The notes below the pieces were generated by a model. The model was not told the DNA's origin. It did not search any database and saw only the letters and a program-made list of their open reading frames with translations. A stretch of DNA of 64,000 nt, from the NCBI GenBank assembly GCA_024699715.1, contig JANPRD010000011.1, forward strand, positions 1-64,000, in the 5' to 3' direction. Position numbers and translations under genes: made by a program. Within the stretch, counting starts at the first letter, position 1. The number at the start of each line of letters is the position of its first letter. The stretch comes from Candidatus Methanophagales archaeon (GTDB lineage: Archaea; Halobacteriota; Syntropharchaeia; Alkanophagales; Methanospirareceae). Of the stretch, positions 2,413 through 64,000 are shown piece by piece.

Positions 2413-5182
2413 ATGCGAGAATCAGCGGATAAGGAGGTAAAGGAGGGATTTTTGATTGATGCTGACTACATTACGGTGCGAGATGCATCTGGAAAGAAGA
2501 AAGCAGTGATAAGATTATGGTGCAAAGACATAGCAGGTCGTGATTTTGTTGTGTTTGACGGGAATTTTGAGCCTTACTTTTATGTTTTTCCACGCCACCT
2601 TTTCAACAATGCGGGTAATACTGCCACTACGAAGGACGCTTGCGATTCCGCTTGGGATGTAGAGGAGAAGAAGCGGGAGTTGGAGCGGATTTGCGTGCGC
2701 AGTGGAGGCGAGCGGATTAGACCGAAGAGGGTGGAGGTTTGCACACGGAAGGTATTTGGAGTGCCTTGTCGTGGCTTGCGGGTCGTTGCGGAATACCCGA
2801 AGGATGTGCCTGTGCTGCGTGAGGAAATTCAGCGGAGGGACGAGAGCTGCGTTGCGTTGGAGGCGGACATCCTTTTCGCAATCCGCTACCTCGTGGATAA
2901 AGACCTGCGGCTTTTTGATGGTATTTGCGTTGAAGGCAAGCGTCTCTCTGCGGAGCAAGTGGCAGAAAAATTCAAAGTGGCGGCGTCGGTGTCGGTAGAG
3001 GAAGCTTTCCTCGCCGAGCGTGTTATGTGGAAGCACTTGAAGAGACCTCCACTGCGCATCCTTGCCTTCGATTGCGAAATGGCGTCCCCTTACGGAATGC
3101 CTTCGCCGAGGCGAGACCCCATAATCATCATTTCATGTGCGTTCAAAGAGGCGAGAAGCGGTGTTGAGGGCGGAGAAATACGCACAAAAATCTTCGCTCT
3201 TCGTGAAGATGAGGCAAAAACAAAAGATGACAGCCGAATAATTCGTGAATTTGTGCAATTCGTGAGGGATTTTCGCCCTGATGTGATTGTAGGATACAAC
3301 ACGGATGCTTTTGATTGGCATTATTTGAAGGAAAGGGCGAAAATTCACGGCATTAAATTGAACATAGGCAAGGACGGCTCTGAATTGAGCATTGAAAAGG
3401 GTGGAGTTTCGCCAGAAGTGAATATTGCAGGCGTTCTAAATGTTGATTTATACAAGATTGCGAGGCGAGATTTGTCTGAAGTGAAGGTGAAAACGCTTGA
3501 GAATGTCGCTGAATTTCTCGGAGCGATGCGAAAAATTGAGCGAGAGAGCCTTACGCCGAGAGAGATTTACGATTTTTCAAGAGGGAGCGAAGAAGAGCGT
3601 GGTAGGTTGCGAGCGTATGCGATTGCAGATGCGGTTTCGGCGTTGAAAATTGCGGAGCGTCTGCTACCGCTTCAGATTGAGCTTTCGCACATTCTGCGTT
3701 GCCCGCTTGACATACTTGCGAACATGGGCAGAGGTAGGCAAGTAGAGGCACTGCTTCTCTCCGAGGCGTTCAAGCGTGGCGAACTGGTGCCGCAGCGAAG
3801 AGAAGGGCGTGCAGAGTCTTACGAGGGCGGTTTCGTCCTGCCACCGAAGAAAGGACTGCATGAGAATGTCATTTCTCTTGACTTCTCATCCATGTATCCC
3901 TCAATAATGCTCTCTTTTAACATATCTCCCGACACATTTGTGCCTCCCGAAGCGGTTAAGAATAAGGATGACTTTTACATTGCACCTGAGGTGGGTCATG
4001 CATTTAGGAAGCATCCTGATGGCTTTTTCAAGCAAATATTGAGCGAGCTTGTGGAGAAGAGGCGAGAAATAAAGCGAAGAATGGAAGAAGTTGCGGAAAA
4101 GGAGGGGAAAGATAGCCAAGAAGCACGCATTTTGGATGTTCAGCAGCACTGCTTGAAGATTTTAACGAATGCGTTCTACGGCTACACAGGCTGGAGTGCA
4201 GCAAAGTTCTACCGAAAGGAGTGTGCGGAGGCGACGACCGCTTGGGGAAGATATTTCATAAAAAAGGCGATAAAAATGGCGGAATCGCTCGGTTTTGATG
4301 TGATTTACGGCGATACGGACAGCATTTTCGCAAAATTGAGCGGTGAAGCGACGAAAGAAGAGATAATTAAGAGGGCGAAGGAGCTTGCGGATGCAATATC
4401 TTCGGAATGGGAGCTCGCAAAACTTGAGATAAAGGAATTTTTCAAGACAATATTCTTCACAGGAAAGAAGAAGAGGTATGCTGCGCTGACTGAGGATGGC
4501 GAAATTGTCGTCAGAGGTTTAGAAGCGAGGCGAGGTGACTGGTGCGAGCTTGCGAAGGAAGTGCAAATGAAAGTGATTGAAATCATTTTGAGGCGTAAGG
4601 ATGCGAAATTAGCCGCTGAATATGTGCGAGATGTCATTGAAGATTTACGCTCTGGCAAAATACCAATAGAAAAACTCATCATTTACAAGACACTAACGAA
4701 GAAAATAGAAGGATATGAGACGAAGCAAGCGCATGTAGTTGCTGCAAAAGTGGCGAAAGATGCGAATGTCATATATGAAATAGGCTCAAAGATACCGTAT
4801 GTGATTGTATGTGAGACGGTTTTGGGAGCTGCAGGTGAGCGTGGAGAAAGGGGCGGGATAGGCGGAGATGGGGTTAAAAGAAGCGTTGTAAAAGGGAGGA
4901 GGGGTGGGTAAGGCGAAGGAGAGGAAGAAGAGGGCGAAAAGGAGCGGTATTGGTGGTGCGGGAGAGGATAAAACGAGTGAGCGGGCATTTCCGATTGAGA
5001 TAGCGGTTGATGTGCGTGGAAATGAAATAAGAGACGCAATGGGGCGTTCTTTCCACATAGACGCTGATTATTATGTGCAGAAGCAGATAATACCAGCAGC
5101 GGTGCGAATTCTTCAAATTTTCGGCTACGACGCTTCTTATTTCGCTGAATCACCGCAGAAGAATTTGAGTAGGTGGCTTTGA
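2413..5182 (+). CDS. polB: Family B DNA polymerase, interrupted by a +1 frame change near its C-terminus
   Basis: Replicative or repair DNA polymerase with 3'-5' exonuclease. Exo motifs are FDCE (near residue 218), GYNTDAFDWHY and YAIADAV. Polymerase motifs are DFSSMYPSI (near 490), KILTNAFYGY, YGDTDS (near 631) and KKRY. The first frame stops with TAA at 4909-4911 inside a Gly/Arg/Lys-rich insert absent from the family. The expected C-terminal block (IDADYYVQKQIIPAAV) is in the +1 frame from 4904 to 5182. That second frame has its own GTG at 4904 behind GGGAGGAGG, overlapping the stop, so a translationally coupled split subunit is possible. Split PolB is known in Methanothermobacter, though at a different site. 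A sequencing insertion is the main alternative. Confidence 0.9.
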
Positions 5183-5212
5183 CGCCTTCTCAACGAGCAA
5201 CTGACCGAAAAG

Positions 5213-5220
5213 CTTTTAAA
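5213..5220 (+). promoter_or_regulatory. TATA box and ribosome site of the histone gene
   Basis: CTTTTAAA lies 34 bases before the histone ATG at 5254, and GGTGAGGG sits just upstream of that start. Together they fit a short-leader archaeal promoter, as expected for an abundant protein. Confidence 0.5.
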
Positions 5221-5253
5221 GAGCGGTTCTTCACTTGAAATTGGTGAGGGAAA

Positions 5254-6029: not shown

Positions 6030-6807
6030 GAGCAGTCAGTCGTGTGGTCGCATTTTTGAGATTTTCAGCTCCTTTCAGGGCGAAGGAACGCTTGTTGGTC
6101 GCCGTCAAATATTCATACGATTTGCAGGATGCCCCCTGCGTTGCTCCTACTGCGACACGCCTGAAGCGAGAAATTTCAAAGCAGGCACCGAAATGAATGT
6201 TTCTGAGGTGCTTCGTTGCGTGAAAGCGCTTGCGACCGCTGACTTGCACAGCATCTCTTTCACAGGAGGCGAACCTCTCGCACAACCCTCATTTTTGAAG
6301 GAGCTCGCATCAAAAACGAAATCCGAAGGCTTCAAAAATTATATTGAAACGAGCGGATTCAACGCAAAAGCATTCGCATCCGTCGCAGATTTTTTTGATT
6401 TCGCATCCATAGACATAAAATTGAGTAATCATAATGCAATTTCACATGAAAAATACGATGAACTATACGGAAATGAGATTGAGACTGTGAGAATTTCCGC
6501 CAAGAAGGGATTGAAGACGATTGTAAAAGTCGTCGTTTTGAAGGGGACGAAAGCGGAGGAGATTGAGCGCATCTGCAAAGACATCGCTTCGTTTGATGTT
6601 GATTTTGTGCTTCAGCCTGTCTCGCCAGCGGAGCAAGCGAAGCAAGCGGAGCAAGCGGAGCAAACGGAGCAGGCGGGTGAGCGGCGAATGAGGCGTGTGG
6701 AACCTCCGAGTATTGAGGAGATGTTCAAACTTTCAGAGATTGCGGGGCAATTTATTGAAAATGTGCATGTTATACCGCAAATGCATAAGATTCTTGGAAT
6801 TTCTTAG
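6010..6807 (+). CDS. queE: 7-carboxy-7-deazaguanine synthase (QueE-like radical SAM)
   Basis: Radical SAM enzyme making CDG from carboxytetrahydropterin, an early step to archaeosine in tRNA. N-terminal FEIFSSFQGEG is the QueE signature; GCPLRCSYC gives the cluster-binding cysteines and FTGGEPL the SAM-binding Gly-rich motif. Near the C-terminus is an EQ/KQ-repeat insert (about 6628-6680) built from repeated GAGCAAGCG-like units, not expected in the family. arcS at 37.5-39.5 kb acts later in the same pathway. The 3' end converges on the minus-strand secreted-protein gene. Confidence 0.88.
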   Translation: MSVIRNESSQSCGRIFEIFSSFQGEGTLVGRRQIFIRFAGCPLRCSYCDTPEARNFKAGTEMNVSEVLRCVKALATADLHSISFTGGEPLAQPSFLKELASKTKSEGFKNYIETSGFNAKAFASVADFFDFASIDIKLSNHNAISHEKYDELYGNEIETVRISAKKGLKTIVKVVVLKGTKAEEIERICKDIASFDVDFVLQPVSPAEQAKQAEQAEQTEQAGERRMRRVEPPSIEEMFKLSEIAGQFIENVHVIPQMHKILGIS

Positions 6808-8763: not shown

Positions 8764-10340
8764 CTCGTGCTACTGCTACGGAAGCGGGGGCGGAGAAGGA
8801 GAAAGAGGAAGAGAAAGTGGGAGAGAAAGGGAAGGGAGAGCCGTCAGCACTAAGATTTCGGCTCGTTGCGGTGCTGAAGTGCAGTGCAGATTTGAACGAA
8901 GATGCGGTCGCAGAGTTGCGGAAATTCGTGAGTGCGTGCAACGAGGGCTTGTTGAAGAGGGGGGCGCCTGCGGGCTGCGGTGCTGAGATTGTGTCTTTTA
9001 AAGTTCTCAATGGGAACATAGAATTGGAAATACACTCTGACCGCTTTGTCCGAGCTCACGACGCTCTTCTCCGTTTCAGAAAGAATTTGGCGCCAATTCT
9101 CGGCAAATATCGCATAGGTTTGCGAGGAATTGAAGTTAAAAAATATGAGATAGAGATGGAATCGCAAGGTTTGAAGCTAAAAACGCTTCCTTTCGTCAAA
9201 AGCATCTCTTATTCCGACGGAAATATTGTCATTTCGCTTGATTTGACCGAGAGCGATTTGGAGCGGAGGATTCCGGACAGGATTTTGAGGTTGCTTGAGG
9301 AGAAAAAGGAGGCTGCTCGCTGGGGCGGTAAGAAGGAGCACTGGGAACTGCTTTTTGAGAGCAGGCGTAAGGAGTTCTTCTTCAACAAAGACCCGACGGA
9401 AGAGATGCTTCGCAGGGGCTGGATAAGGCACGGCTCCGCAAGAGGTCAGTGGATTTACGGTCCGCAGGTAACACGCTTATTCAGAGCATTTGAGAAGATT
9501 CTCTTGGAGGAAGTGTGCTATCCTTTGGGATATGTGGAGATGATTTTCCCGAAGGTCGTTTCTTGGGATGTTTGGAAGCGTTCTGGGCATGCTCGTGCAA
9601 TTTACCCCGAAGCTTACTATGTGTGCGTGCCGAAGACGAGAGACCCTGAGTTCTGGGAGGACATCGCAGATTACTTCAAAGTCACGGGCGAGATTCCAAC
9701 TGAAAAAATAATGGAGCGCATAGAGAACATCGGTGGTCTCTGCTATGCGCAGTGTCCGCCATTTTGGGTGTTTTTGCAGCGAAGAGTGCTTGCTGATGAG
9801 TGCTTACCGATTTGCATTTTTGACCGTTCCGGCACTTCTCACAGATACGAGAGCGGAGGAATTCACGGAATTGAGCGAGTTGACGAGTTTCACCGTGTTG
9901 AACTCGTTTTCATCGGCACGAAAGAGCAAGTAATTGAGCATGCTCAACGATTGAGGGAGCGATACCGCATCGTTTTTGATAAGATTCTTGACATTGAGTG
10001 GCGAGAAGCGTGGGTAACGCCATGGTTCATGGCTCAGGAAGGTCGTGCAGGCGTCGCATCTCAAAAGGAAGTCGGCACAATTGACTTTGAGGGCTTTCTG
10101 CCTTACAACGGAAAGTGGCTTGAGTTCCAAAATGTGAGCATAAACGGCGACAAATACCCGAAGAGCTTCGGCGTGAAACTGCAAAGCGGCAGGGAACTCT
10201 GGTCAGGATGCTCTGGCGTCGGGCTTGAACGCTGGACCGCCGTTTTCCTCGCTCAAAAGGGTCTTGACCCTGAAAATTGGCCCGATGCGTTCAAAAAGTT
10301 CGTCGGCGAACTGCCTGAAGAAGTCTTTAAGTTCGTTTAA
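8760..10340 (+). CDS. serS: Seryl-tRNA synthetase, methanogen-type (type 2)
   Basis: Charges tRNA-Ser; the rare zinc-dependent class II SerRS of methanogens and relatives. Recognisable blocks are TRGAP-like KRGAPAGCGAE in the N-terminal tRNA domain, RGSARGQWIYGPQ, YYVCVPKTRDPEFW, the zinc-site context CYAQCPPFW, DRSGTSHRYESGGIHGIERV, and the C-terminal SGCSGVGLERWTAVFLAQ. The first 30 or so residues are a Glu/Lys/Gly-rich extension ahead of the usual start (RFRLVAVLKCSAD), so the true start may be later or the extension is one of the window's low-complexity additions. Length is otherwise normal. Confidence 0.96.
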   Translation: MTRATATEAGAEKEKEEEKVGEKGKGEPSALRFRLVAVLKCSADLNEDAVAELRKFVSACNEGLLKRGAPAGCGAEIVSFKVLNGNIELEIHSDRFVRAHDALLRFRKNLAPILGKYRIGLRGIEVKKYEIEMESQGLKLKTLPFVKSISYSDGNIVISLDLTESDLERRIPDRILRLLEEKKEAARWGGKKEHWELLFESRRKEFFFNKDPTEEMLRRGWIRHGSARGQWIYGPQVTRLFRAFEKILLEEVCYPLGYVEMIFPKVVSWDVWKRSGHARAIYPEAYYVCVPKTRDPEFWEDIADYFKVTGEIPTEKIMERIENIGGLCYAQCPPFWVFLQRRVLADECLPICIFDRSGTSHRYESGGIHGIERVDEFHRVELVFIGTKEQVIEHAQRLRERYRIVFDKILDIEWREAWVTPWFMAQEGRAGVASQKEVGTIDFEGFLPYNGKWLEFQNVSINGDKYPKSFGVKLQSGRELWSGCSGVGLERWTAVFLAQKGLDPENWPDAFKKFVGELPEEVFKFV

Positions 10341-10884: not shown

Positions 10885-10977
10885 AGCGGGCGGATGCGAG
10901 CGGAGCGGAGGAGAGGCAGAAGTGGAAGCGTAGGCGAGGAAGCGAGGGAGAGGAAGTGGAGGAGGGGGGTGTGTTGA

Positions 10978-21313: not shown

Positions 21314-21910
21314 ATGAGGCTGAGAGAGAAGGACAAATGCATTCTACGCCTCTTGATTCAGAACGGCAGGCTTCCATTCGCTGAGATCGGGAGGAGATGC
21401 GATGTCAGCAGGCAGGTCGCTTTTGAGCGAGTAAAGCGGTTTCTTGAGGAGGGTCTTGCAGAAGGATTCACCATTCGCCTTAATGAAGAGAAGTTCGGAT
21501 TATCTTTCCGTGCTTATATCCTCATTATTGCGAAACCTTCAGAGAGTTTGCGTAAAGAACTCATTAATTTCCTTCAAAAAAGCAGGAATGTCCGCAGAAT
21601 TCAGCTACTTTTCGGCAGATACGACTTCTTCCTTGAACTTCTATTCAGAAATAAGGATGAAATGACTGATTTCATAAGGGAAATGCACGCTTTTGAAGCG
21701 GTTGAACGCACTGAAACTTTCATCGTTTACCAAACGCTGAAGGAGAAGCCTGAAGACCCCTTCCTCGCTCTGCTTGACGCCGACGCTCACACTGACACAA
21801 ACGCAGACACACACGCCGACACAAACGCTGACACAAACGCTGACGCTGACGCTCACGCCGACGCAAAAGACACGAATCGGCAGAAGAGCGGGAAGGGAGA
21901 AGAACAGTAG
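21314..21910 (+). CDS. Lrp/AsnC-family regulator with aspartate/alanine repeat tail
   Basis: N-terminal helix-turn-helix (RLPFAEIGRRCDVSRQVAFERV) followed by an effector domain (LFGRYDFFLELLF). After about residue 155 the protein becomes a run of DT/NA/DA repeats encoded by near-perfect ACGCTGACAC-like units (21778-21870), then ends in a basic tail. The tail is not a known part of the family and looks like a microsatellite expansion kept in frame. The next gene starts 12 bases on, so the two form an operon. Confidence 0.85.
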   Translation: MRLREKDKCILRLLIQNGRLPFAEIGRRCDVSRQVAFERVKRFLEEGLAEGFTIRLNEEKFGLSFRAYILIIAKPSESLRKELINFLQKSRNVRRIQLLFGRYDFFLELLFRNKDEMTDFIREMHAFEAVERTETFIVYQTLKEKPEDPFLALLDADAHTDTNADTHADTNADTNADADAHADAKDTNRQKSGKGEEQ

Positions 21911-21922
21911 AGAAGTGAGGAA

Positions 21923-23725
21923 ATGAGGATTCTTGCTGTGACTGGGAAGAGAGCGGAAAGCATCCTGAAGGAAGCGTTGCGTGAATGGGAGCGGGAGCAA
22001 AAAGGAAAAGGTGAGAGGCACGAGTGCGAGGTTCTCACGCAAAATATCGGAATTGCTGCGTTCACAACGCCGAGAACGCTCAAAAGGGCGCTTGAGCGCA
22101 GATTCACTGCGAACCCACACACATACACACGCACATACACACACACGCACACAAAAACACGCAACGCACACGCAAACGCACATGCCCGCTCGCAGTGCGA
22201 ATTGCGGAAGTGTCTCGCAGGCTACGACATGATTCTCGTTTCAGGACTCTGCAAGGCGGATTTCAGCGAGCTTGAGCGTGAGTTGGGCATTCCAATCCGC
22301 TTGGGTCCCAAGAATGCGAGGGACATCGGTGAGGTGCTGAAGCATGCATCAGAGATTGAATTCTCTGCGAGCGTTCCAGCGGATATTTTCCTGTCGGAGA
22401 AGCGTCGTGAGAACGCTTTGAAGGAAGTCGCCTCTTTTGAGCGTGCTGCGTCTGCGAGTTTCTCCGTGAAGGGCGTGAAAATCGGCGGCGACTCACGAAT
22501 GAAGGTCTGTGCTGAGATTGTGGATGCGACGCTTTTGAGCGAAGAAGAGGTTCAGAAGCGCATGCAATATTTCTTGGAGAGCGGTGCAGACTGGATTGAC
22601 ATCGGCGTGCATGTCTCAGCCAAAGAGAAGGATGTTGAGCGAGCGGTCTCTGCTGCTTTGAAATGTGATGCCTCCGTGCCAATCTCTGTGGACACGCTTG
22701 ACCCTGAACTCCTGCTCGCTGGCGTTTCTGCGGGTGCTGACATCGTTTTGAGCCTGAACAGCGAGAATATGCACATCGTAGAGAAAATTGCGGATGCTGG
22801 CGTCTCAGCAGCGGTCGTTGTGCCTGACTTTCAGGCGTTGCGGGAAGAGGAAGTGGGAGAGAGAGGGAGAGAGGAGAAAGGGACGAGAGAGGCTCGGATT
22901 TTGAATAGTTTATTTGCGAACTTACGCTCTGCTGCGGATGCGGGCATAAAAAATTTGATTGCTGACCCTGTTTTGAATGCTCTCGGCTACGGCTTCACCG
23001 CATCCCTCAAAAACTACATACTTTTCAGGGAGCGGGACAAGAAAACCCCTCTCTTCTTCGGTGTCGGAAATGTAACCGAGCTTTTGGATGCGGATTCCAT
23101 CGGTGTGAATGCCCTCCTTGCAGGCATCGCATCAGAGTTGAACGCATCTGTGCTTTTCACGCCTGAACACAGCGATAAATGCGTCGGTTGCGTTTCAGAG
23201 CTGAGAAGGGCGGCGGAAATGATGCTACTCGCAAAAAAGCGTAAGACAACGCCGAAAGACCTCGGTATTGACCTCCTTGTTCTGAAGGAGAAGCGTAGGA
23301 GAAGACCTCGCATTCTTAAGACGGCAGCAGAGGAAGCGATGAAAGCAGAGGACGCAAATGTGGTCGTTGCGAAAGAAAGCGAGACTTGGCGACCTGACCC
23401 CCTCGGCAGTTTCAGAATAGAGCTCTGCGAGACCCCCGCAGGCTCAAGAATACTCGCCACGCACTCTTCACTGACGAAACAGGCGGAACAGACGAAACAG
23501 ACGAAACAGACGAAAGAGGGAAAAGAGGGGAAAGAGCGGAAGGAGACGAAAATCGTCGGTAGGAATGCGAAGGAGGTGCTTGACACCATTCTTCGTTTGG
23601 GTCTCGTATCCTCGCTTGAGCATGCCGCTTACTTGGGTAGAGAGCTCGCAAAGGCGGAAATCGCACTCTCCCTGAAAAAAAGCTACGAGCAGGACGAGCC
23701 ACTGTTCAAGAGCCTCCTTCATTAA
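21923..23725 (+). CDS. Dihydropteroate synthase-like protein with three low-complexity inserts
   Basis: Archaeal DHPS-related family (TIGR00284 type), proposed in pterin biosynthesis but not shown to be classical FolP. The TIM-barrel part begins near KIGGDSRMKVCAEIVDA, with SGADWIDIGVHVS, ISVDTLDPELLLAGVSAGAD and LIADPVLNALGYG. About 600 residues, roughly 100 more than usual. The excess is three inserts: a His/Thr/Arg run from a (CA)n-rich stretch (22098-22195), a Glu/Gly/Arg run (22845-22895) and a KQT/KEG run (23475-23555). The core motifs are intact around each insert. Confidence 0.82.
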   Translation: MRILAVTGKRAESILKEALREWEREQKGKGERHECEVLTQNIGIAAFTTPRTLKRALERRFTANPHTYTRTYTHTHTKTRNAHANAHARSQCELRKCLAGYDMILVSGLCKADFSELERELGIPIRLGPKNARDIGEVLKHASEIEFSASVPADIFLSEKRRENALKEVASFERAASASFSVKGVKIGGDSRMKVCAEIVDATLLSEEEVQKRMQYFLESGADWIDIGVHVSAKEKDVERAVSAALKCDASVPISVDTLDPELLLAGVSAGADIVLSLNSENMHIVEKIADAGVSAAVVVPDFQALREEEVGERGREEKGTREARILNSLFANLRSAADAGIKNLIADPVLNALGYGFTASLKNYILFRERDKKTPLFFGVGNVTELLDADSIGVNALLAGIASELNASVLFTPEHSDKCVGCVSELRRAAEMMLLAKKRKTTPKDLGIDLLVLKEKRRRRPRILKTAAEEAMKAEDANVVVAKESETWRPDPLGSFRIELCETPAGSRILATHSSLTKQAEQTKQTKQTKEGKEGKERKETKIVGRNAKEVLDTILRLGLVSSLEHAAYLGRELAKAEIALSLKKSYEQDEPLFKSLLH

Positions 23726-33106: not shown

Positions 33107-33188
33107 TCTTCCACGCCTCCTCGCCCTCCTCGCCCCTTGCCCCTCGCTCTTGTTCTCTCATTCTCCCGTTCTTCCCGTTCTCTCGTCC

Positions 33189-39571: not shown

Positions 39572-41296
39572 ATGGCAGAAATTTTAAAGAAAAGACAGAA
39601 GAGTGGCATGCATTCATGCTCCTTTTCTCCTACTACTTTATCCTCCATACTCGCCATTTCTCACAAAATCAAAATACTGAAAGGAAGAAGGGGAAAATCT
39701 CTGCCAAATGCGGATGAGAAAGAGCGTGAAAGCGGAGTGGCAGAGCAAGGGCGTGCAGAGAAAGAAAAGGAGGCGGAAGAATCTGCGTCAGAGGAGGGCG
39801 AGGTTTTGCATAGATTCCAAATACCGGAAGGATACAAAGAAGAGGAGCGGTATTTTGTGAATGAGCCTTTCGCATTTGTCAGTATTTTGTATAATGAGGA
39901 GAAGAATTCATATTTGTATTATGCGGTTGAGCCATATTTGAATGAAATTGAGAGATTTTTCCTTGCAGAAATATCTGAAAAGCTGCGAAACATCCTTCTT
40001 TTCACGGATATTGAGAGCGAGAGGAAGAGCAAGGAGGAAATACTGAAAGAGAAGATTTCTGAGGTTGTTAAGAGGCATCACATTAAAATCGGTGAAAAAT
40101 CTCTCGGAAAAATAAGATATTACATCATAAGAGACTTCATTCACTTCGGTAAGATAGATGTGCTTATGCGAGATAGGTTCGTTGAAGACATATCTTGCAA
40201 CGGTTATGACATTCCAGTATATATCTACCACTGGAAATATGGTAACATAGAGACAAATATTGCGTTCAATAACATTGAATTGGATTCATTTGTTGTTAAG
40301 ATAGCGCAGAAAGGCGGAAAACATCTCTCGCTTGCTGACCCGATGCTTGATGTGACGATGGAAGACGGCTCAAGGGCGCAGCTCACACTCGGCACTGAAA
40401 TAACGACAAGGGGAAGCACATTCACAATCAGAAGGTTCAGGGAGGTGCTTATTACGCCTGTTGACCTTGTTCGTTGGAACACTTTCAGTGCGGAGGCGAT
40501 GGCTTATTTATGGTTGTGCGTGGAAAATGGTAAAAGTATTCTTTTCGTCGGAGGAACTGCATCAGGAAAGACAACATCAATGAACGCAGTCGCACTTTTC
40601 ATACCGCAGAATGCGAAAATCGTGACCATTGAGGACACTCGTGAGATAAGATTGCCTCACAAGAACTGGATTCCCGGCGTAACGAGGGTCTCATTCATGG
40701 GAACGGAGCGAGGCTCAATTGACATGTATGATTTATTGAGAGCAGCATTGAGACAGCGTCCAGAATACATTTTGGTTGGCGAAGTCAGAGGAAAGGAGGC
40801 ACAAACGCTATTTCAAGCGATGTCCGTCGGTCATACTTCTTTCTCAACTTTCCATGCGGACAGCGTTGATGCTGCCATTCATCGCCTTGAATATCCTCCT
40901 TTAAGCGTGCCTCGTTCAATGATTCAGTCGTTGGATGTGTTCTCTATTCAGGCACAAGTCTTCATCGGTCACAAAAGAGTGCGTAGAAATGTTGAAATCA
41001 CCGAAAATTTAGGGATTGACCCCACCACAAGAACAATAAAAACGGTGAAAGTCTTCGAGTGGATTCCATCCGAAGATGCTTTCCGCATGCTTCGCCTCAC
41101 TTCCTCAAAGGTTATTCGTGAAATCATGCGAATGAAGGCATGGAGCAGGGAAGAAGCCGAGGAAGAGTTTGAAAGCAGGGCATCCTTGCTCAAAATACTC
41201 GCAGAGAAGGGCATGTCTCACGAAGAGTTCATATCTTTTGTGAAAGCATTTCAGGCGAATCCTGAAAAGGTGAAGCGACTTTATGGCGTTTTATGA
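39572..41296 (+). CDS. Type II/IV secretion (archaeal pilus) ATPase, ArlI/TadA-like
   Basis: Hexameric ATPase powering assembly of type IV pilus-like filaments at the cytoplasmic membrane. The core has Walker A GGTASGKTTSMNAV (near residue 327), the Asp box VTIEDTREIRLPH, Walker B PEYILVGEVRG and the His box GHTSFSTFHADS. The first 80 residues include a Glu/Ala/Arg-rich stretch (39715-39800) absent from relatives, so the start could lie at a later ATG. The membrane platform gene overlaps its end by 14 bases. Confidence 0.92.
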   Translation: MAEILKKRQKSGMHSCSFSPTTLSSILAISHKIKILKGRRGKSLPNADEKERESGVAEQGRAEKEKEAEESASEEGEVLHRFQIPEGYKEEERYFVNEPFAFVSILYNEEKNSYLYYAVEPYLNEIERFFLAEISEKLRNILLFTDIESERKSKEEILKEKISEVVKRHHIKIGEKSLGKIRYYIIRDFIHFGKIDVLMRDRFVEDISCNGYDIPVYIYHWKYGNIETNIAFNNIELDSFVVKIAQKGGKHLSLADPMLDVTMEDGSRAQLTLGTEITTRGSTFTIRRFREVLITPVDLVRWNTFSAEAMAYLWLCVENGKSILFVGGTASGKTTSMNAVALFIPQNAKIVTIEDTREIRLPHKNWIPGVTRVSFMGTERGSIDMYDLLRAALRQRPEYILVGEVRGKEAQTLFQAMSVGHTSFSTFHADSVDAAIHRLEYPPLSVPRSMIQSLDVFSIQAQVFIGHKRVRRNVEITENLGIDPTTRTIKTVKVFEWIPSEDAFRMLRLTSSKVIREIMRMKAWSREEAEEEFESRASLLKILAEKGMSHEEFISFVKAFQANPEKVKRLYGVL

Positions 41297-49421: not shown

Positions 49422-50720
49422 ATGGAAGAAACGGCTTTGAACGCATGTTTCCAGTGTGGAGAATGCACGGCGGTGTGTCCCATGCGCAGGGTCTCAAAAT
49501 TCGCTCCACGCAGCATCATACAAGAGATTCAAGCGGAGAGCAGAACCGACGCTATGCGTGCCGTTGAAGGAGCGGAGGCGGGTGCAGTGGCAGCAGGAGA
49601 CAGCAGAGACAGTAGGGACGGCAGGGGTAGCAGGGGCAGCAGGGACAGCAGGGCAGAAAGCAAAGAATGGCTTTGGATGTGTCTTCTTTGCGGTTCTTGC
49701 TTGATGAAGTGTCCTCAAGGCGTAGATTTTCCGCAGTTCATTCTGCATGCGAGGGAAGAGCAAGGGGGCGCCCCCGAAGAGCTTCTTCCGCACAGGGAAC
49801 TCTCTCAAATCACAGAGATAATGAGCATTCTTGAGCGAGGCGTCCCGACAGATTTTGAGGGCGAGACCGACGAGAGCAGTGAAATCGGATTCTTCCCGGG
49901 ATGCTTGGCTTATTTTGACCTCTTCATGGATGTAAGTGGCGTGAATTACAAGGAAATCGGCGATTATTCTCTCAAATTGCTCAATAAAATAGGCATAAAG
50001 CCTCGCATCCTGCCGCTCAAATGCTGCGGTCATGACATTCTCTTTCAGGGCAAAAGAGAGACTTTTGAGCGTCTCATGGCTTTCAATAAGCGGAAAATAA
50101 AGGAAAGTGGCATTAAAATGCTCATTTTGAACTGTGCAGAGTGCTATTTCACCTTCAAAAAATACTATAAATTGGAGGAAGAGGGGGTTAAAGTCGTGCA
50201 TTTAGCCGAAATTCTTGCTGAAAATGTGCATTTCATTCGCAAAGCGATGAAGGAAGCAAGCGAAGCAAGCGTGAAGAGCAGCGGGACAAAGGCAGTAAGA
50301 GTGGCTTACCACGACCCTTGTGCGTTGAAGATGCTCGGCGTTTACGAGGCGCCTCGTGAAGTTTTGCGTGCTGTGGCGGGCGTTGAATTTGTTGAGCTTC
50401 CGCATGCTCGTGAGAACGCTCTTTGCTGCGGTGTCAGCGGAATGCTCCTCTGCAACGACGCTACGAAGGCGTTGCGTGCTTTTCGGCTGGGCGAAGTGCG
50501 TGAGGTCAAAGCAGATGTCCTCGTGACGACTTGCGTGAAGTGCCTCTCACATTTCAACTGCTTGAAGCGTGAGCAAGAACGCTTACAACAAAAGCAAGGG
50601 CAGGCGGAAGAGCAGGCGGCAGAAGAGGAGGTGAGAAGTAGTGGAGGAAGCAGTGAATACGAGTTTGAAATTTGCGACCTCGCAGTTTTCTTGGGTCGCT
50701 TGCTCGCAGAATCAGATTAA
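49422..50720 (+). CDS. HdrD-like Fe-S/CCG-domain oxidoreductase subunit
   Basis: 432 residues fusing an HdrC-like ferredoxin part (CFQCGECTAVCP and CLLCGSCLMKCPQGVDF) to two HdrB-like CCG domains (FFPGCLAYFD, KCCGHD, CAEC; HDPCALK, LCCGVSG, TCVKC). All cluster-ligand cysteines are present. Family members (HdrD, GlpC, LutA) pass electrons to or from disulfides, quinones or hydroxyacids; the substrate cannot be read from sequence. Two low-complexity inserts occur: Ser/Arg/Asp/Gly between the ferredoxin motifs (49545-49665) and Gln/Glu/Ala near the end (50575-50660). Confidence 0.85.
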   Translation: MEETALNACFQCGECTAVCPMRRVSKFAPRSIIQEIQAESRTDAMRAVEGAEAGAVAAGDSRDSRDGRGSRGSRDSRAESKEWLWMCLLCGSCLMKCPQGVDFPQFILHAREEQGGAPEELLPHRELSQITEIMSILERGVPTDFEGETDESSEIGFFPGCLAYFDLFMDVSGVNYKEIGDYSLKLLNKIGIKPRILPLKCCGHDILFQGKRETFERLMAFNKRKIKESGIKMLILNCAECYFTFKKYYKLEEEGVKVVHLAEILAENVHFIRKAMKEASEASVKSSGTKAVRVAYHDPCALKMLGVYEAPREVLRAVAGVEFVELPHARENALCCGVSGMLLCNDATKALRAFRLGEVREVKADVLVTTCVKCLSHFNCLKREQERLQQKQGQAEEQAAEEEVRSSGGSSEYEFEICDLAVFLGRLLAESD

Positions 50721-51850
50721 ATTCGCTCGCTCCTTAACCCTTCTACACCCGCTTTCACACGCATAACTCTCGCTCCTTCCGCCTTTAGAGCGCCTTCTAT
50801 TAAACATGCATCCTCAGGAGTTTGAGGAAGCACCAAAACAGAACCCACGGAGATTTCATCTGTGCTGCCTGCGCCTGTTACTTTTGCGCCGAGAGCGCCC
50901 AAGCGTTTCGCAGTCGCAACGAAAGCACCCAAATTCTTCGGAACAACACCAACGGCATTTAGCAAGCCATGATTCATGTTTAAGAGCATTCCGAATGTGC
51001 GAAAGTCCCGATTTTTCAACGCTTTCACGCCTTCTTCCGTTATTTCCGAAGCCGCTTTGAGAAAATGTGAGAAAATTGAGGGGAACTTCTCTTTTTTCGC
51101 CTTCACTCGCTCAACAAGATGCTTCGTTTTCAATTTTAAAGAGGCGTCAAAAGGGAAACAATGCGAAGAGGCTACAAGCATTTCAAACGAAGGAAGCTCC
51201 AAATTTTTCACGCTCTCGCCCTCAACAAGCACGAAGCCACCATGCGACGCAACTGCGGTGTCCGTCGGTGAGGCTGCACCCTGAACTAAACGCTCAACCT
51301 CCCTCGCATCTCTGCTGACTTCCTGCCTGAAATCCTCTGAATTTGCGGATGAGATGCCAAAATATTCATTTAATGCGGCAATCATCGCAACACATGTCGC
51401 TGCTGAAGAGCCTAATCCCGCAGAAATCGGAATCTCTGATGTTATTTTTATCCTCAATCCCTCCATTTCTTCCGCTGGAATGTCGTATTTCTCCTGAAAA
51501 TACTGCAACGCAGCTCGGACATAAATAAATGATTCTTCCTTTTTTTCGCCTCTCCACTTCTCCGCACTTTTCTCCGCCCTCCGCTCAGCACTCTCCGCCT
51601 CACTCTCCTTCGCACACTCTTCCACACGCTCTCCTCCGCTACTCAAATGGAAAAAAGCTCGCTGCGAGAAGTGCAAAGAAGGAAAATTTTCCGCCTCAAC
51701 GAGAACACATTTCTGATTAAGCGGTGAAATCTCCACCGTAAGATACCTATTTATTGCGGTTGCGAGTGCTTTCGCACCGTAAACGACGAAATGCTCACCG
51801 AACAATATCAATTTTGCGGGTGCAGTCGCACGAACAACCCCTCTTTTCAC
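50717..51850 (-). CDS. mvk: Mevalonate kinase
   Basis: GHMP kinase phosphorylating mevalonate for isoprenoid lipid synthesis. APAKLILFGEHFVVYG opens the protein, ISAGLGSSAATCVA is the ATP loop, and PTDTAVASHGGF follows. A Glu/Ala/Ser/Arg-rich insert (51540-51645) splits the N-terminal domain. The third GHMP motif, normally a run of glycines, reads TGAGSTDEISVGS, an unusual change at the active-site loop. The start overlaps the HAD gene stop (ATGA). Confidence 0.9.
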   Translation of the reverse strand: MKRGVVRATAPAKLILFGEHFVVYGAKALATAINRYLTVEISPLNQKCVLVEAENFPSLHFSQRAFFHLSSGGERVEECAKESEAESAERRAEKSAEKWRGEKKEESFIYVRAALQYFQEKYDIPAEEMEGLRIKITSEIPISAGLGSSAATCVAMIAALNEYFGISSANSEDFRQEVSRDAREVERLVQGAASPTDTAVASHGGFVLVEGESVKNLELPSFEMLVASSHCFPFDASLKLKTKHLVERVKAKKEKFPSIFSHFLKAASEITEEGVKALKNRDFRTFGMLLNMNHGLLNAVGVVPKNLGAFVATAKRLGALGAKVTGAGSTDEISVGSVLVLPQTPEDACLIEGALKAEGARVMRVKAGVEGLRSERI

Positions 51851-52476: not shown

Positions 52477-52499
52477 CTTCGCACACATCGCCACTCGCC

Positions 52500-52592
52500 C
52501 TTCGCCACACTCACACACGCTCACATGCACACTCGCTCACGCTCACACTCGCTCTCACACTCACACACGCATTCACGCACACTCACGCACTT
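52500..52592. repeat. Simple-sequence spacer rich in CACTCA/CGCTCA units
   Basis: About 90 bases made of degenerate CACTCA, CACACA and CGCTCA hexamers on the plus strand, between the divergent HAD and rnp3 genes. The same kind of repeat occurs inside genes in this window (22098-22195). No promoter element is obvious within it. Confidence 0.8.
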
Positions 52593-52618: not shown

Positions 52619-53392
52619 ATGTTCTACGATTTGGGAGTGCGAGCATTTCAGAGAGGCGTGCTTGAAGTCGCAAAGCGGTTCGGCTACGCAGGAATAGCAG
52701 TGCTGCTCAGGGATGAGGATGCGGAAGTCCTGCTCAAGGACGCTGTTACGAGAGAGCGAGGCGTTTTTTATGGTGTTGAGATTTTTGCCGATTCCATTTC
52801 AGAAATGAAGGATAAGGTGCGTGCTTTCAGCGGAAAAGTGGATGTGCTTGCCGTTCATTCTCGCAAAGATGAGAAGTTCAACAGGGCTGTTTTGAGTGAT
52901 TTTCGTGTTGACATGCTCACGAAAGCGGTTGAAGCGGAGTTGAGTGCTGTTTGTGTCAGATATGCTGCTGAAAATGCCGTCGCTTTGGAGTTCAACATGG
53001 ATGCAATTTTCAAGCAACGCAGGAAGGAGCGAGCAATAGCGTTGAGCAGATTTCGTGAGATGCTCACTCTTGTGAGGAAGTTCAAGGCGATGGTTGTGCT
53101 GACGAGCAACGCACTCTCGCCTTACGACCTGCGGGCGCCTCGTGAAATGCTCGCTCTCTCCTCTCTCTTCGGAATGAACACTGCGGAGGCAAAAGCCGCA
53201 CTCTCTGAAATACCCGAAGGCATCCTGAACAAGCGCTGGAAGCGGGAGCGGGAGAAAGGCGTTGAAATTCTCACCGTGGAAGAGCTGGAAGAACAGGAAG
53301 AACAGGAAGAGCAGGAAGAGCGAAAGAGCAGAAGAAGGAATAAGAGGCGAAGAAGCGGAAGAAGGAGAGAAAAGAAGAAGCGGAAAGCATAA
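52619..53392 (+). CDS. rnp3: RNase P protein component 3 (Rpp30)
   Basis: Archaeal Rpp30 TIM-barrel subunit of RNase P, which matures tRNA 5' ends. MFYDLGVRAFQ at the start, DVLAVHSRKDEKFNRAVLS, RVDML and ALEFNMDAIF are family blocks, and SSLFGMNTAEAKAALSE is the usual C-terminal region. After residue about 218 it continues as EEQEEQEEQ then an Arg/Lys-rich tail, an extra low-complexity extension that could contact RNA. rnp2 follows in the usual archaeal order. Confidence 0.93.
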   Translation: MFYDLGVRAFQRGVLEVAKRFGYAGIAVLLRDEDAEVLLKDAVTRERGVFYGVEIFADSISEMKDKVRAFSGKVDVLAVHSRKDEKFNRAVLSDFRVDMLTKAVEAELSAVCVRYAAENAVALEFNMDAIFKQRRKERAIALSRFREMLTLVRKFKAMVVLTSNALSPYDLRAPREMLALSSLFGMNTAEAKAALSEIPEGILNKRWKREREKGVEILTVEELEEQEEQEEQEERKSRRRNKRRRSGRRREKKKRKA

Positions 53393-58530: not shown

Positions 58531-59772
58531 GTGATTCGCATCTCACAGCTCGTCTGCGGAAGGGGAACAGTTAGCGAGGCGTTGAAGCACCGCAGTAAGC
58601 CCGTTGAAGAGATTCCGAGCGGATTCATTGCGTTCTCCGAAATAAAGCGACCTGTCGTTTTCTGGAATGTGACGAGGAAGTGCAATTTGCGTTGCGTTCA
58701 CTGCTACATTTCCGCTTCTCCCTCTCCTGCCACCACATCAGTATTCGCAGCAGGCAAAAGCGGAACAGCAGAGGCGGGAAAAGAAGTGGAGGAGGAACTT
58801 TCAACGGAGGAGGCGAAGGTGTTCATTGAAGACCTTGCTGCGATGAGGATTCCGTTGCTCATGTTCACGGGAGGCGAGCCTTTGGTGAGGAAGGATTTCT
58901 TTGAGATTGCGGAATACGCAAATGCTCTGCGATTGAAGACCGCATTAAGCACGAATGGCACACTGATTTCTGAAAGTGTTGCTTCTCGCCTCAGAGAATG
59001 CGGTATTGAGTATGTCGGCATTTCTTTGGACGGCGCATCCGAGCAGACACACGACGAATTCAGAGCGCAGCGAGGAAGCTTCAAAAAGGCTCTGCAGGGA
59101 CTGAAAAACTGCGTTGAAGCAGGTCTGAAAACAGGCATACGCTTCACCGTCACTCGCTTCAATTACAAGGAACTTCCCGCTCTTATTGAGCTTGCACTCT
59201 CGCTGAAAGTGCCTCGTTTCTGCGTTTACTGGCTTGTTCCGAGCGGAAGAGGGAGCGAAATTTACGAGCAGCAGTTGAAACATGCGGAAGTGCTGGAAAT
59301 TCTGAACTTTCTTTACCGAAAGGCATTGGAATTGAGCGGAAAAATGGAGATTTTGACCGTTGACGCACCGCAAGATGCGGTATTCTTTCTACAAAAATTG
59401 AAAGAGGATGGGCTGGAGGAAGCATACGAGAGCGGTTTGAAACTGCTTGAGTTCATGGGAGATGCGTGCAGTGCTGGCGAAAGAGTTGCGAATGTAGACC
59501 CTGCTGGGAATATTTACCCGTGCCAGTTCGCCCAGATGCCTGCGCTTAAAGTGGGAAATGTGCGAGAGCGGAAGTTCAGTGAAATCTGGAACGACCCCAA
59601 GAACGAAATCCTGCGAGCGTTCAGGGAGAAGCGGAAGCATTTGAAAGGTGCGTGTCGCACTTGCGAGTTCAAGCAAATCTGCGGTGGCGGTTGCAGGATA
59701 AGAGCGCTTTCTGCATTTGGGGACATCTGGGCGGAAGACCCACTTTGCCCTCTCACCGAGCAAGCGAAGTGA
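58531..59772 (+). CDS. ahbC: Radical SAM 12,18-didecarboxysiroheme deacetylase, AhbC/NirJ-like
   Basis: Removes acetate side chains to give Fe-coproporphyrin III. Cluster motif CNLRCVHC, SAM motif FTGGEPLVR, and a C-terminus with NVDPAGNIYPCQF, NVRERKFSEIWND and CRTCEFKQICGGGCR, closely like NirJ/AhbC. A Ser/Ala/Thr/Glu-rich insert (about 58710-58800) lies just after the cluster motif, an unusual position. It starts with GTG. With ahbD and ahbAB it gives the complete route from siroheme to haem. Confidence 0.82.
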   Translation: MIRISQLVCGRGTVSEALKHRSKPVEEIPSGFIAFSEIKRPVVFWNVTRKCNLRCVHCYISASPSPATTSVFAAGKSGTAEAGKEVEEELSTEEAKVFIEDLAAMRIPLLMFTGGEPLVRKDFFEIAEYANALRLKTALSTNGTLISESVASRLRECGIEYVGISLDGASEQTHDEFRAQRGSFKKALQGLKNCVEAGLKTGIRFTVTRFNYKELPALIELALSLKVPRFCVYWLVPSGRGSEIYEQQLKHAEVLEILNFLYRKALELSGKMEILTVDAPQDAVFFLQKLKEDGLEEAYESGLKLLEFMGDACSAGERVANVDPAGNIYPCQFAQMPALKVGNVRERKFSEIWNDPKNEILRAFREKRKHLKGACRTCEFKQICGGGCRIRALSAFGDIWAEDPLCPLTEQAK

Positions 59773-60543: not shown

Positions 60544-61313
60544 ATTTCTTGCTTCACCTCGCCACGCTCAAGCAGTATGCCTCTTTCGCAGACTCGCTTC
60601 GCCCACTCGTAGGAATGTGAGGAGAGAATCAGCGTCTTACCCTTGAAGCACTTGAAATATTCAGCGAGCAGTTCCCTCGAGCTCTCGTCAAGCCCACCGA
60701 AAGGCTCGTCCAAGAGGACAAGCGAAGGACGGTGAATCAAAGCCCTTGCGATGTCCGCTCGCTTCCTTAAGCCGTAGGAGAGATGCTTCGCCTTCACATC
60801 CAGCCAACGACCTAAATTCAAAAATTCCACCAACTCCGAAAGCGTTTCCTCCCAAGAACTCCCACAACCCTCACAACTCTCATAACTCCCACAAAAACGC
60901 TCACGAGCTTTGTTTAAAGAGAAGAGTTTTGCGTAGAACGCCAAATTCTCACGCACCGTCAATTCGTCGTAGAGGAAGCTTTCATGCGCTACAAGACCTA
61001 TTTCACGCCTTAATTCAGCGGTTTTTGAGCTGTTTTGGAAGGCGTTCTCGCCAAAAATCTTTACAGTTCCAGCAGTTGGCTTCATTTGTGTCGCTATTAT
61101 CTTTATTAATGTTGTTTTACCCGCACCATTTGGACCGAGAAGTGCGACGAATTCGCCAACTTTCACCGAAAGTGAGACTGATTTGAGGGCGAAGAAGTAG
61201 CCAAATCGCTTTGACACGCCCTCCAACTGCACTGCCGTCTTGATGTTTTCACCTCTTTCGCTTCCTTTTCCGCTTTCGCCTCTGCCACTACTGTCTCCGC
61301 CTGCTGCCGCCAT
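60534..61313 (-). CDS. ccmA: ABC transporter ATPase, CcmA
   Basis: Haem-exporter-type ABC ATPase. Walker A LLGPNGAGKTTLIKII, signature HLSYGLRKRADIARAL (Y/G variant of LSGGQ), Walker B SLVLLDEPFGGLDE and switch His in LILSSHSYEWAKR. A Cys/Ser/Gly insert (RFCGSYESCEGCGSS, 60850-60905) lies before the signature motif, and the first 25 residues are Gly/Ser/Glu-rich. The coupling to ccmB and the neighbouring haem genes supports CcmA over a generic ABC-2 ATPase. Confidence 0.87.
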   Translation of the reverse strand: MAAAGGDSSGRGESGKGSERGENIKTAVQLEGVSKRFGYFFALKSVSLSVKVGEFVALLGPNGAGKTTLIKIIATQMKPTAGTVKIFGENAFQNSSKTAELRREIGLVAHESFLYDELTVRENLAFYAKLFSLNKARERFCGSYESCEGCGSSWEETLSELVEFLNLGRWLDVKAKHLSYGLRKRADIARALIHRPSLVLLDEPFGGLDESSRELLAEYFKCFKGKTLILSSHSYEWAKRVCERGILLERGEVKQEICL

Positions 61314-61471
61314 TTTTTCTTGCTCCTTTCCTCGTTCTTCCTCTTCCTCTCTCTCATCCTCTCTCGCTCCTCTTTTGCTTCACTTCTTCCTTTCCCTTTC
61401 AGAAAGGAAAATTAAGTAATGGGAGAAATAAGTGCGTAGGTGCGGTAGTGCGGTAGGAAAGGTGCGTAAAG

Positions 61472-62308: not shown

Positions 62309-62440
62309 ATGCATCTGAACTTCATTTGCAACTTCCTCACACTTAAATATGCTTTTTCATTCCCTTTATCAAACACCTTCTCCTCTTATTCACATATCAC
62401 AAGGAATTTTTACGCTCATAACTAATAATAACACTAGAAG

Positions 62441-64000
62441 ATGGCGACAGAAGTGGAGGAGGAGCGTCGCAGATACGAGGAGGCTTGCAAGGAAATAGCG
62501 AGGCTCGCATTGAGCAAGCGAGCAGAAGAGCTGAACCTGAACAGGCTGAAGAAGGAAGTGAGCAGGAAATATGGATTGAGCAGCATTCCGAAGAACTCGG
62601 ATGTGCTGAACATCGGCATTTCAATGCTACGAGGCGAGGAGGGTGCTGGTAGTGGTGGCGTTGCAGTCGCAAGCGTCGCTGAAGAGCTGCGAGAGCGTTT
62701 GAGGAGGAAGCCGATGCGGACTGCTTCAGGAGTTGCGCCTGTTGCAGTGATGACTTCTCCGCATCCTTGCCCGCATGGTCGTTGCGTGATGTGTCCTGGC
62801 GGTCCTTACTCCGAGTTCAAATCTCCGCAGAGTTATGTCGGCAGAGAACCCGCAGCAGCAAGAGCATCTCAGCATCATTTTGACCCTTACGAGCAGGTGC
62901 TTGCTCGCCTTCGCCAGTTGGAAGAAATAGGGCATGACTACGACAAAGTAGAGCTCATTTTAATGGGAGGAACGCTCACAGCGAGGAGCGAAGCATACCA
63001 GCGATGGTTCGTTAAGCGATGCCTTGACGCCCTCAACGACTTCGGCGCAGCAAGAAAGCGAGCAGTGAGGAACACGGGCATCACATTTGAAACCCGTCCT
63101 GACTACGCAAGAGAACCTCAGATTGACCTTATGCTTGAGCTCGGAGCGACGAAGGTTGAAATCGGCGTCCAGCATGTCAGAGACGAAATACTTCAAAAAA
63201 TCAAGCGGGGACACACAGTCGCAGACACCGTCGCAGCGAATCAAAAACTGAGGGACTCCGCCCTGAAGGTCGGCTTCCATGTCATGCTCGGTCTTCCCGG
63301 AAGCTCTGTGGAGACTGACAAAGAAATGTTTGAGCAGATTTTCAACGACGAGAGGTTCAAGCCTGACTTCCTCAAAATATACCCGACGCTTGTCGTTAAA
63401 GGCACTGAACTATATGAAATGTGGAAGCGTGGCGAATACGAGCCTCTTGATGTTGAAGATGCTGTTGAAATCATTGCTTATGCGAAGAAGATAGTGCCTC
63501 GTTGGGTTCGCATTCAGCGAATTCAGCGAGATATTCCCGCAAAATTCATAGAAGCAGGCGTTAAGAAGAGCAATTTGCGTCAATTAGTGCATGAAAGACT
63601 TGCGAAGGAAGGTCGTAAATGCATGTGTGTGCGGTGTCGTGAGGCGGGTTTGAGGGCTTTGCGAGGAGAAATGCCTGACGCTGAAAATGTGAGATTGTGT
63701 TGCGAGTCTTACGAGGCTTGCGGCGGCACAGAGTTCTTCCTGTCTTACGAGGACACCGCAAATGACATTCTTGTCGCTCTGCTGCGACTCCGTCTGCCTT
63801 GCGAGCCTCACAGAGCGGAGCTTAAGGGCGCTGCTTTGGTGCGAGAGCTGCATGTTTACGGCGAGCTCGTCCCTCTCGGAGAGCGTAAAGAGAGAAGTTG
63901 GCAGCATCGTGGCTACGGCGCTAAATTGCTTGCGAAAGCAGAGGAAATTGCGTCTGCGGAGGGATGCAAAAAAGTTGCGATAATGAGCGGAATAGGCGTC
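62441..64000 (+). CDS. elp3: Elongator-like tRNA acetyltransferase Elp3 (partial, runs off the end)
   Basis: 520 codons are present and the frame is still open at the window edge. Radical SAM domain: CPHGRCVMCPGG cluster motif, ILMGGTLTAR, TFETRPDYAR, EIGVQHVRDEIL and HVMLGLPGSS. The zinc-region cysteines CMCVRCREAG follow, and then the start of the GNAT domain with acetyl-CoA loop RGYGAKLL. Makes cm5U-type modification at tRNA wobble uridine. A Gly/Ala/Val-rich insert is at about 62640-62675. AT-rich CTTAAATATG at 62342 may be its promoter. Confidence 0.95.
   Translation, partial: MATEVEEERRRYEEACKEIARLALSKRAEELNLNRLKKEVSRKYGLSSIPKNSDVLNIGISMLRGEEGAGSGGVAVASVAEELRERLRRKPMRTASGVAPVAVMTSPHPCPHGRCVMCPGGPYSEFKSPQSYVGREPAAARASQHHFDPYEQVLARLRQLEEIGHDYDKVELILMGGTLTARSEAYQRWFVKRCLDALNDFGAARKRAVRNTGITFETRPDYAREPQIDLMLELGATKVEIGVQHVRDEILQKIKRGHTVADTVAANQKLRDSALKVGFHVMLGLPGSSVETDKEMFEQIFNDERFKPDFLKIYPTLVVKGTELYEMWKRGEYEPLDVEDAVEIIAYAKKIVPRWVRIQRIQRDIPAKFIEAGVKKSNLRQLVHERLAKEGRKCMCVRCREAGLRALRGEMPDAENVRLCCESYEACGGTEFFLSYEDTANDILVALLRLRLPCEPHRAELKGAALVRELHVYGELVPLGERKERSWQHRGYGAKLLAKAEEIASAEGCKKVAIMSGIGV

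Follow-up and report, generated by a model that had tools for sequence, protein, structure and literature searches.

Low-complexity blocks in conserved enzymes of an ANME-1c archaeon as probable footprints of short tandem duplication

The 64,000-nucleotide stretch analyzed here (the window) comprises positions 1-64000 of contig C13 (JANPRD010000011.1) in an archaeal metagenome-assembled genome (MAG) of 1,492,685 bases in 16 contigs (GCA_024699715.1, here G000), and conserved enzymes along its length, among them the DNA polymerase PolB, the queuosine enzyme QueE and RNase P subunits, carry repetitive low-complexity blocks. These blocks are very probably the footprints of a genome-wide process of short tandem duplication, which has acted on the chromosome of this member of the anaerobic methanotrophic archaea (ANME), group 1c, and separately on at least one other ANME-1 lineage (G008). 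The nearest solved structure to the McrA protein of G000 is 3SQG, which we take to be the ANME-1 McrA enzyme. The assignment to ANME-1c is based on three figures, size, number of contigs and GC content, which fit those of a published MAG (1.493 Mbp, 16 contigs, 47.8% GC) from the Guaymas enrichment AOM70, grown at 70°C; that MAG was built from PacBio long reads with Flye (PMC9539880).

The initial annotation of the window had described low-complexity inserts and tails in recognizable enzyme families, and these proved to be real and genome-wide. Low-complexity residues in the open reading frames (ORFs) of the window number 875, against 335 ± 63 when each protein is shuffled, and 13 tandem arrays were called (Tandem Repeats Finder score of at least 50), against a mean of 0.42 and a maximum of 3 in 60 third-order Markov copies. 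Unit lengths in genes are mostly 9, 12, 15 or 18 bp, and between genes 8, 13, 14, 15, 16, 22 bp and others. The blocks named for QueE, the SerS N-terminus, the Lrp tail, the DHPS-like protein (three), the HdrD-like protein (two), mevalonate kinase (MVK), the Rnp3 tail and CcmA were all found, with Pfam boundaries fitting an N-terminal extension in SerS and tails in Lrp and Rnp3. Those of the mannosidase, ArcS, pilus ATPase, Rnp2, AhbAB and Elp3 are visible in the sequence. The PolB block at 4840-4975 is likewise present, though it is no tail: an insert of about 50 aa separates the palm from the thumb, which resumes in another frame. In the MFS protein, most low-entropy stretches are ordinary membrane segments, and 36806-36862 alone forms an insert-like loop.

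Array density separates a few genomes from the remainder of ANME-1. G000 has 25.5 arrays per 100 kb (over 502 kb), its closest relative among the genomes compared (G010) 52.6 and G008 69.4, against 0-13.7 in 15 other ANME-1 genomes, 1.6 in a control set of 50 other prokaryotic loci (731 kb, mostly from thermophilic archaea, with loci drawn from a PEPCK search) and about zero in the Markov control. In a tree of five proteins, G000 and G010 are sisters at the base of ANME-1 and every other ANME-1 genome falls into a single clade (support 100), within which G008 is nested among repeat-poor genomes (support 92), the inner branching being poorly resolved. On this tree the repeat-rich state would have been gained at least twice in ANME-1, or it may have been ancestral and lost several times. 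Outside ANME-1, moderate densities were seen on small samples in G023, G021 and G019 (33, 20 and 17 arrays per 100 kb); the arrays of G023 are mostly intergenic, and all three genomes are without a detected Y-family DNA polymerase. Thermophily as the sole cause was discarded, given that growth temperature predicted from composition fails to separate repeat-rich from repeat-poor ANME-1 and that the thermophile-rich control loci are repeat-poor.

Several properties indicate that the repeats originate at the level of DNA. In G000, 61 of 72 coding arrays have unit lengths that are multiples of three, against 19 of 43 outside genes (p=8e-6); the corresponding ratios of multiples to non-multiples are 66:6 (coding) and 18:14 (non-coding) in G008, and 19:8 and 13:26 in G010. 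Inter-copy conservation in the coding arrays of G000 is alike at codon positions 1, 2 and 3 (0.78/0.79/0.77). The test was repeated on repeats picked at the protein level only, since the coding arrays had been picked by DNA similarity, and identical residues in G000 reuse the same codon with a frequency of 0.60 against an expected 0.327 ± 0.024, about 11 standard deviations (SD) above expectation. Comparable excesses were found in G008 (0.79 vs 0.37) and G010 (0.74 vs 0.36), the control loci giving 0.31 vs 0.29. This indicates that the repeats were born by copying of DNA and not by selection on amino acids. Intergenic arrays are of the same kind of sequence as coding ones, with a purine/pyrimidine skew of 0.27 against a background of 0.12 (p=9e-14), and arrays cover 32 bp/kb between genes in G000 against 9 bp/kb within them. 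The suggestion that a single DNA-level process lies behind coding and intergenic repeats is thus supported by codon reuse, by the frame filter and by the similarity of the intergenic sequence.

Alignment to relatives, which had been proposed as a check, revealed lineage-specific inserts in QueE, the DHPS-like and HdrD-like proteins, MVK, PolB, AhbC and CcmA; relatives do not share the same inserts at the same places. Inserts without counterpart in most relatives, between conserved flanks, occupy residues 215-230 of QueE, 48-82 of the HdrD-like protein, 75-88 of MVK and 65-98, 307-323, 461-470 and 520-542 of the DHPS-like protein, where G010 carries an unrelated insert at the 65-98 site. It had been stated that family motifs resume intact after each block; in the assembly, PolB and the pilus platform change frame at theirs and the mannosidase contains a stop. 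At the PolB palm-thumb site, 13 other relatives whose sequence spans it have a short loop, while the three repeat-rich genomes carry unrelated inserts of about 50 aa (G000), 18 aa (G010, GRGIGGRRKGGG) and 22 aa (G008, GARGAGGARGTGGARGG), which appear from their sequences to have arisen independently; the G000 thumb (AVRILQIFGY ... QKNLSRWL) continues in another frame from 4892 on. When orthologs were paired with those of repeat-poor ANME-1 (82 pairs), G000 held 38 insertions with a minimum length of 8 aa, 24 of them of low entropy, and the relative 3, in agreement with the proposal that the blocks were added later at sites tolerant of length changes, the placement in surface loops coming from alignments only. 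The same comparison gave 13 vs 1 for G008 and 5 vs 2 for G010, and 0-1 for repeat-poor genomes tested likewise. The PolB insert was considered as a source of the mutator state, given its occurrence at the same loop in all three repeat-rich genomes, and rejected, as chance suffices: with roughly 15 inserts for every 10,000 aligned residues, a PolB of 830 residues is expected to have one. A Hel308-like helicase lies immediately upstream of PolB (window 166-4975).

The blocks had also been attributed to slippage or template-free repair that seeds coding microsatellites. What is enriched, however, is duplications of 8-18 bp, and runs of 1-, 3- or 4-base units show no enrichment over other ANME-1 (homopolymers of at least 9 occur at 0.2, 0.0 and 3.7 per 100 kb in G000, G010 and G008, and at 2.2 in other ANME-1). 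Exact adjacent copies are about 3-13 times commoner than in comparison sets at 8-9 bp and about 4-60 times commoner at 12 bp, with exact 9-bp duplications at 13.5-20 per 100 kb in repeat-rich genomes against 1.5-2.2. Copies within arrays are about 78% identical to each other in G000 and 85-88% in G010 and G008, so that many arrays are not recent; since each copy resembles the adjacent unit, it would have been copied from a neighboring template, contrary to template-free repair. Exact two-copy duplications have a median unit of 12 bp in G000 and G010 and 15 bp in G008. Their boundary homology in G000 averages 0.63 bp, where chance gives about 0.7 by our own estimate, suggesting that seeds arise where the flanks share little or no homology. 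Slippage is thus plausible for the expansion of arrays, whereas classical slippage between pre-existing direct repeats fails to explain their initiation.

The process that would best account for these properties begins with the tandem duplication of a stretch of DNA, mostly of 8-18 bp but reaching about 30 bp. Homology at its flanks would be slight or nil, and purine/pyrimidine-skewed sequence would be the most frequent site. Once two copies are present, slippage by whole units would grow some arrays to 3-7 copies. In genes, the survivors would be those that keep the frame and sit at length-tolerant loops or ends, while intergenic arrays could keep any length, and point mutations would then erode the arrays into low-complexity stretches of E, K, R, G, A, S, T and Q. 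Of this scheme, the data show the origin at the level of DNA, the frame filter, the lineage specificity, the purine skew, the range of unit sizes and, in G000, the near-chance boundary homology, while growth by slippage and the order of events are inferred.

Selection at the protein level for charged, disordered linkers, for instance because they aid growth at 70°C or contacts between proteins, would make the repetitive DNA a by-product. The inserts are indeed rich in E, K, R, G, A and S and lie at loops and ends, and the organism is thermophilic (PMC9539880), but the excess of same-codon reuse in G000 and the higher repeat content of intergenic DNA oppose this explanation, as does the low array density of the thermophile-rich control loci, and several repeat-poor ANME-1 have an equal or higher growth temperature as predicted from composition; it is accordingly regarded as quite improbable. 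A mobile short element, similar to the Rickettsia palindromic elements, could have spread inserts over many unrelated genes as observed; nonetheless, unit sequences in the window differ from array to array and copies resemble their own neighbors (no all-against-all comparison of inserts was made), which leaves this origin hardly credible. Assembly or basecalling errors in a PacBio/Flye MAG (PMC9539880) have more in their favor with respect to the frame breaks than to the inserts. Long homopolymers are scarce in G000 (0.8 per 100 kb against about 10-15 in many ANME-1), suggesting contraction, and assembly errors may account for the frame changes at the PolB insert and in the pilus platform, as well as for the stop within the linker of the mannosidase. 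Artefacts would not, however, keep the frame in 85% of coding arrays, and G010 and G008 are separate assemblies that display the same pattern more strongly. The multiple-of-three pattern and these two further assemblies make it very unlikely that the inserts themselves are errors. Frame breaks as repeat-driven pseudogenes were not adopted either, since four of the five found in G000 lie away from repeats; the smaller samples taken from G010, G008 and G013 contained no such breaks. A CcmB-like membrane protein has a frame break at window 60101-60124 (ORFs 59823-60182 and 60103-60543), away from repeats.

Two explanations concern the replication and repair machinery that might underlie tandem duplication. 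Yeast deficient in FEN1 is known for small duplications, and the loss of a mismatch-repair or flap-processing gene would produce classical repeat instability. MutL had no match in G010, and one MutS copy of G000 is split over two frames. Nevertheless, all three repeat-rich genomes encode MutS and FEN1, the latter with conserved catalytic motifs, and MutL is found in G000 (on the window's own contig) and in G008, so that simple loss of these genes is an improbable cause. The signature of mismatch-repair loss, an enrichment of homopolymers or tri- and tetranucleotides over other ANME-1, does not appear. As to FEN1 deficiency, whose signature is short direct repeats at duplication edges, boundary homology is at chance level in G000 and somewhat longer in G010 and G008. 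NucS loss was rejected, as matches do not track the repeat-rich state. Loss of the Y-family lesion-bypass polymerase, which is compatible with the tandem-duplication process and would lie within it, would leave duplications through misaligned restart or fill-in at breaks or at stalled forks that restart out of register. The polymerase (IMS family) was detected in 12 of the 14 other ANME-1 tested but in none of G000, G008 and G010. Across the 27 genomes compared, array densities above 12 per 100 kb occur in seven, none of which has the polymerase, and the 15 with it do not exceed 11.1 (Fisher p=0.0009 with the threshold set afterwards; rank test p=0.02; ANME-1 only p=0.007). Worms without lesion-bypass polymerases accumulate genome scars, mainly deletions and some tandem duplications (PMC7202663), and archaeal PolB and PolD slip in vitro on hairpin templates bearing direct repeats (PMC4134008). 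These statistics ignore kinship, so that common ancestry inflates the test, and the absences may partly stem from incomplete MAGs. To our knowledge, many hyperthermophiles without a Y-family polymerase show no such repeats, which counts against its loss as the cause. The absence of this polymerase is therefore a suggestive correlate, to be taken as a lead only, and as a cause it is unlikely. Somewhat more broadly, it is possible, if doubtful, that at least two ANME-1 lineages are independently tandem-duplication mutators, in which a homology-independent process, unmasked once the Y-family polymerase or some other fork protection is lost, keeps adding disordered segments to essential enzymes.

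A number of points weigh against the tandem-duplication process or against parts of it. The polymerase correlation was found post hoc after five repair families had been tried, and G024, G025 and G020, as well as G004, have no Y-family match yet are repeat-poor, so that absence is insufficient. Boundary homology is longer in G010 (mean 1.56 bp) and G008 (3.1 bp, inflated by multicopy arrays), where slippage between repeats of 1-7 bp may contribute. Some inserts sit at sites where relatives too have variable charged loops, as at the HdrD-like C-terminus, whose EQ-rich site varies in length in all relatives, and some tracts may thus predate the process. Five frame breaks occur in about 74 homologous genes of G000, with only that of PolB at an insert. 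The sample of G000 covers about one third of the genome and those of other ANME-1 just 16-110 kb per genome, gene calls follow a simple longest-ORF rule, and the evidence consists of assembled sequences only, so that it bears on past duplications rather than on ongoing instability.

Three observations concern the MutS proteins of the repeat-rich genomes. Those of G000 (L232:8013-11123, C10) and G010 (L234:8147-11428, C9) have in common a C-terminal extension past the ATPase domain (RYGYRPDVIALTDEELVIIEAER), which looks like a fused nuclease-type domain, MutS being shorter in repeat-poor ANME-1. The MutS of G008 (L233:6168-10322) has 1385 aa; an apparent intein lies in its ATP-binding motif (GPNMSGK^C), and its tail reads EEEEKEEEE. 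A second, canonical MutS in G000 (L230:8980-11617, C7) spans two overlapping frames (452 + 447 aa), split at a repeat-free site.

Among known systems, the closest resemblance is to the Borgs, extrachromosomal elements of Methanoperedens whose tandem repeats are near-perfect, A-rich and virtually absent from Methanoperedens chromosomes (PMC9879509). Pervasive tandem repeats in and between genes, an independent origin at each site, disorder-promoting residues and a biased strand composition are shared. The repeats of G000 are, however, chromosomal and located in core enzymes (PolB, QueE, RNase P), the same assembly encoding an ANME-1 McrA, FEN1 and MutL, and their copies are degenerate. Multiples of three make up all coding and 14-38% of intergenic Borg units (PMC9879509), against 61 of 72 and 44% in G000. 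Perfect arrays of at least 50 nt and at least three units, the strict Borg definition, number zero in 502 kb of G000, zero in 133 kb of G010 and five in 160 kb of G008. Instead of an A-rich bias, intergenic repeats of G000 display a purine bias, with A at 0.355 and G at 0.374 on the purine-rich strand. In Plasmodium falciparum, conserved globular enzymes are broken up by repetitive, lineage-specific loops, mainly Asn-rich and of short units in an AT-rich genome; the loops in conserved enzymes are alike, whereas the present units are purine-rich, of 8-18 bp and in an archaeon of 48% GC. A survey of complete genomes (units of 1-9 bp) found short tandem repeats not to be expanded in archaea or bacteria (PMC12699852); the present genomes likewise carry repeats in coding and non-coding DNA but are an exception, with mostly larger units partly outside the surveyed range. 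No earlier report of such an expansion in ANME-1 was found in the literature searched, and the novelty is that repeat insertion of the Borg or Plasmodium kind occurs here in the chromosome of thermophilic archaea.

Tandem repeats are usually regarded as scarce in archaeal chromosomes, which makes this level of stutter unusual. The puzzling Borg repeats of another methane-oxidizing archaeal group thereby gain a counterpart on a chromosome. The inserts constitute a natural record of positions that accept new disordered segments in PolB, QueE, RNase P subunits and heme and isoprenoid enzymes. Repeat-rich and repeat-poor genomes occur in one family, with an apparent separate gain in a repeat-poor clade, so that comparing them offers a way to look for the genetic cause, and the 70°C enrichment culture (PMC9539880) puts direct tests within reach. 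The features of the window are collected in Table 1.

Table 1. Low-complexity blocks, repeats and associated frame changes in the window (coordinates in window positions).
Feature	Position	Strand	Basis
PolB up to palm, running into insert	2413..4908	+	Pfam DNA_pol_B 436-802
PolB palm-thumb insert, about 50 aa, G/E/R/K-rich, carrying frame change	4822..4975	+	Alignment to relatives
PolB thumb and PIP-like C-terminus, second frame (end approximate)	4892..5180	+	Alignment
QueE insert, 9-bp unit x5.6 (AEQAKQAEQAEQTEQ), missing in all aligned relatives	6627..6676	+	Array call, alignment
SerS N-terminal EK-rich extension, ahead of tRNA-binding domain	8766..8846	+	Pfam boundary
Intergenic 14-bp repeat, G/A-rich	10924..10964	no strand	Array call
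Lrp C-terminal tail, 12-bp unit x4.4 (TNADTHAD)	21776..21877	+	Array call, Pfam boundary
DHPS-like insert 1 (HTYTRTYTHTHT)	22115..22186	+	Alignment
DHPS-like insert 2	22838..22891	+	Alignment
DHPS-like insert 3 (KQTKQTKQTKEGKEGKERKE), missing even in G010	23471..23554	+	Alignment
Alpha-mannosidase C-terminal half, A/G/E-rich block	27570..27665	-	Array/Pfam/low-complexity
Alpha-mannosidase low-complexity linker, in-frame stop splitting two ORFs	28500..28600	-	ORF list
Intergenic 8-bp repeat, pyrimidine-rich on + strand	33152..33186	no strand	Array call
MFS loop block (ERVGERERAGVRRAGERGV)	36806..36862	+	Low-complexity scan
ArcS block 2	37823..37867	-	Array call
ArcS block 1, 15-bp unit x3.8	39303..39360	-	Array call
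Pilus ATPase N-terminal EK-rich block	39749..39808	+	Low-complexity scan
Pilus platform block, followed in another frame (ORF 43016-43324) by the C-terminal membrane helix	43111..43158	+	
HdrD-like 35-aa insert between two 4Fe-4S motifs, 9-bp unit x6.9 (SRDSRDGRGSRGSRDSR)	49551..49655	+	Alignment, Pfam
HdrD-like C-terminal EQ-rich block	50571..50633	+	Alignment
MVK insert	51557..51622	-	Alignment
CACACTCG-type repeat, called intergenic; at or just past 5' end of minus-strand ORF 51847-52530	52506..52570		
Rnp3 C-terminal tail (EEQEEQEEQEE, then RK-rich), past Pfam domain	53258..53389	+	Pfam boundary
AhbC stretch holding insert PATTSVFAAGKSGTAEAG (coordinates approximate)	58593..58800	+	Alignment
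CcmA insert, 9-bp unit x4.2	60857..60894	-	Array call, alignment

Additional aspects of the window lie apart from these blocks. Rfam families gave zero matches within it. A GTP-type PEPCK at 19380-21173 has matches in the species collection nearly all from Thermoproteota or other distant lineages, suggesting that the gene was horizontally transferred; its use as a taxonomic marker was dropped, as matches mostly from Thermoproteota and unrelated MAGs are uninformative on placement. At 24060-24982, 156-bp units are repeated 5.9 times, with PKD-like sequence downstream and a broken frame, a kind of repeat that differs from the inserts.

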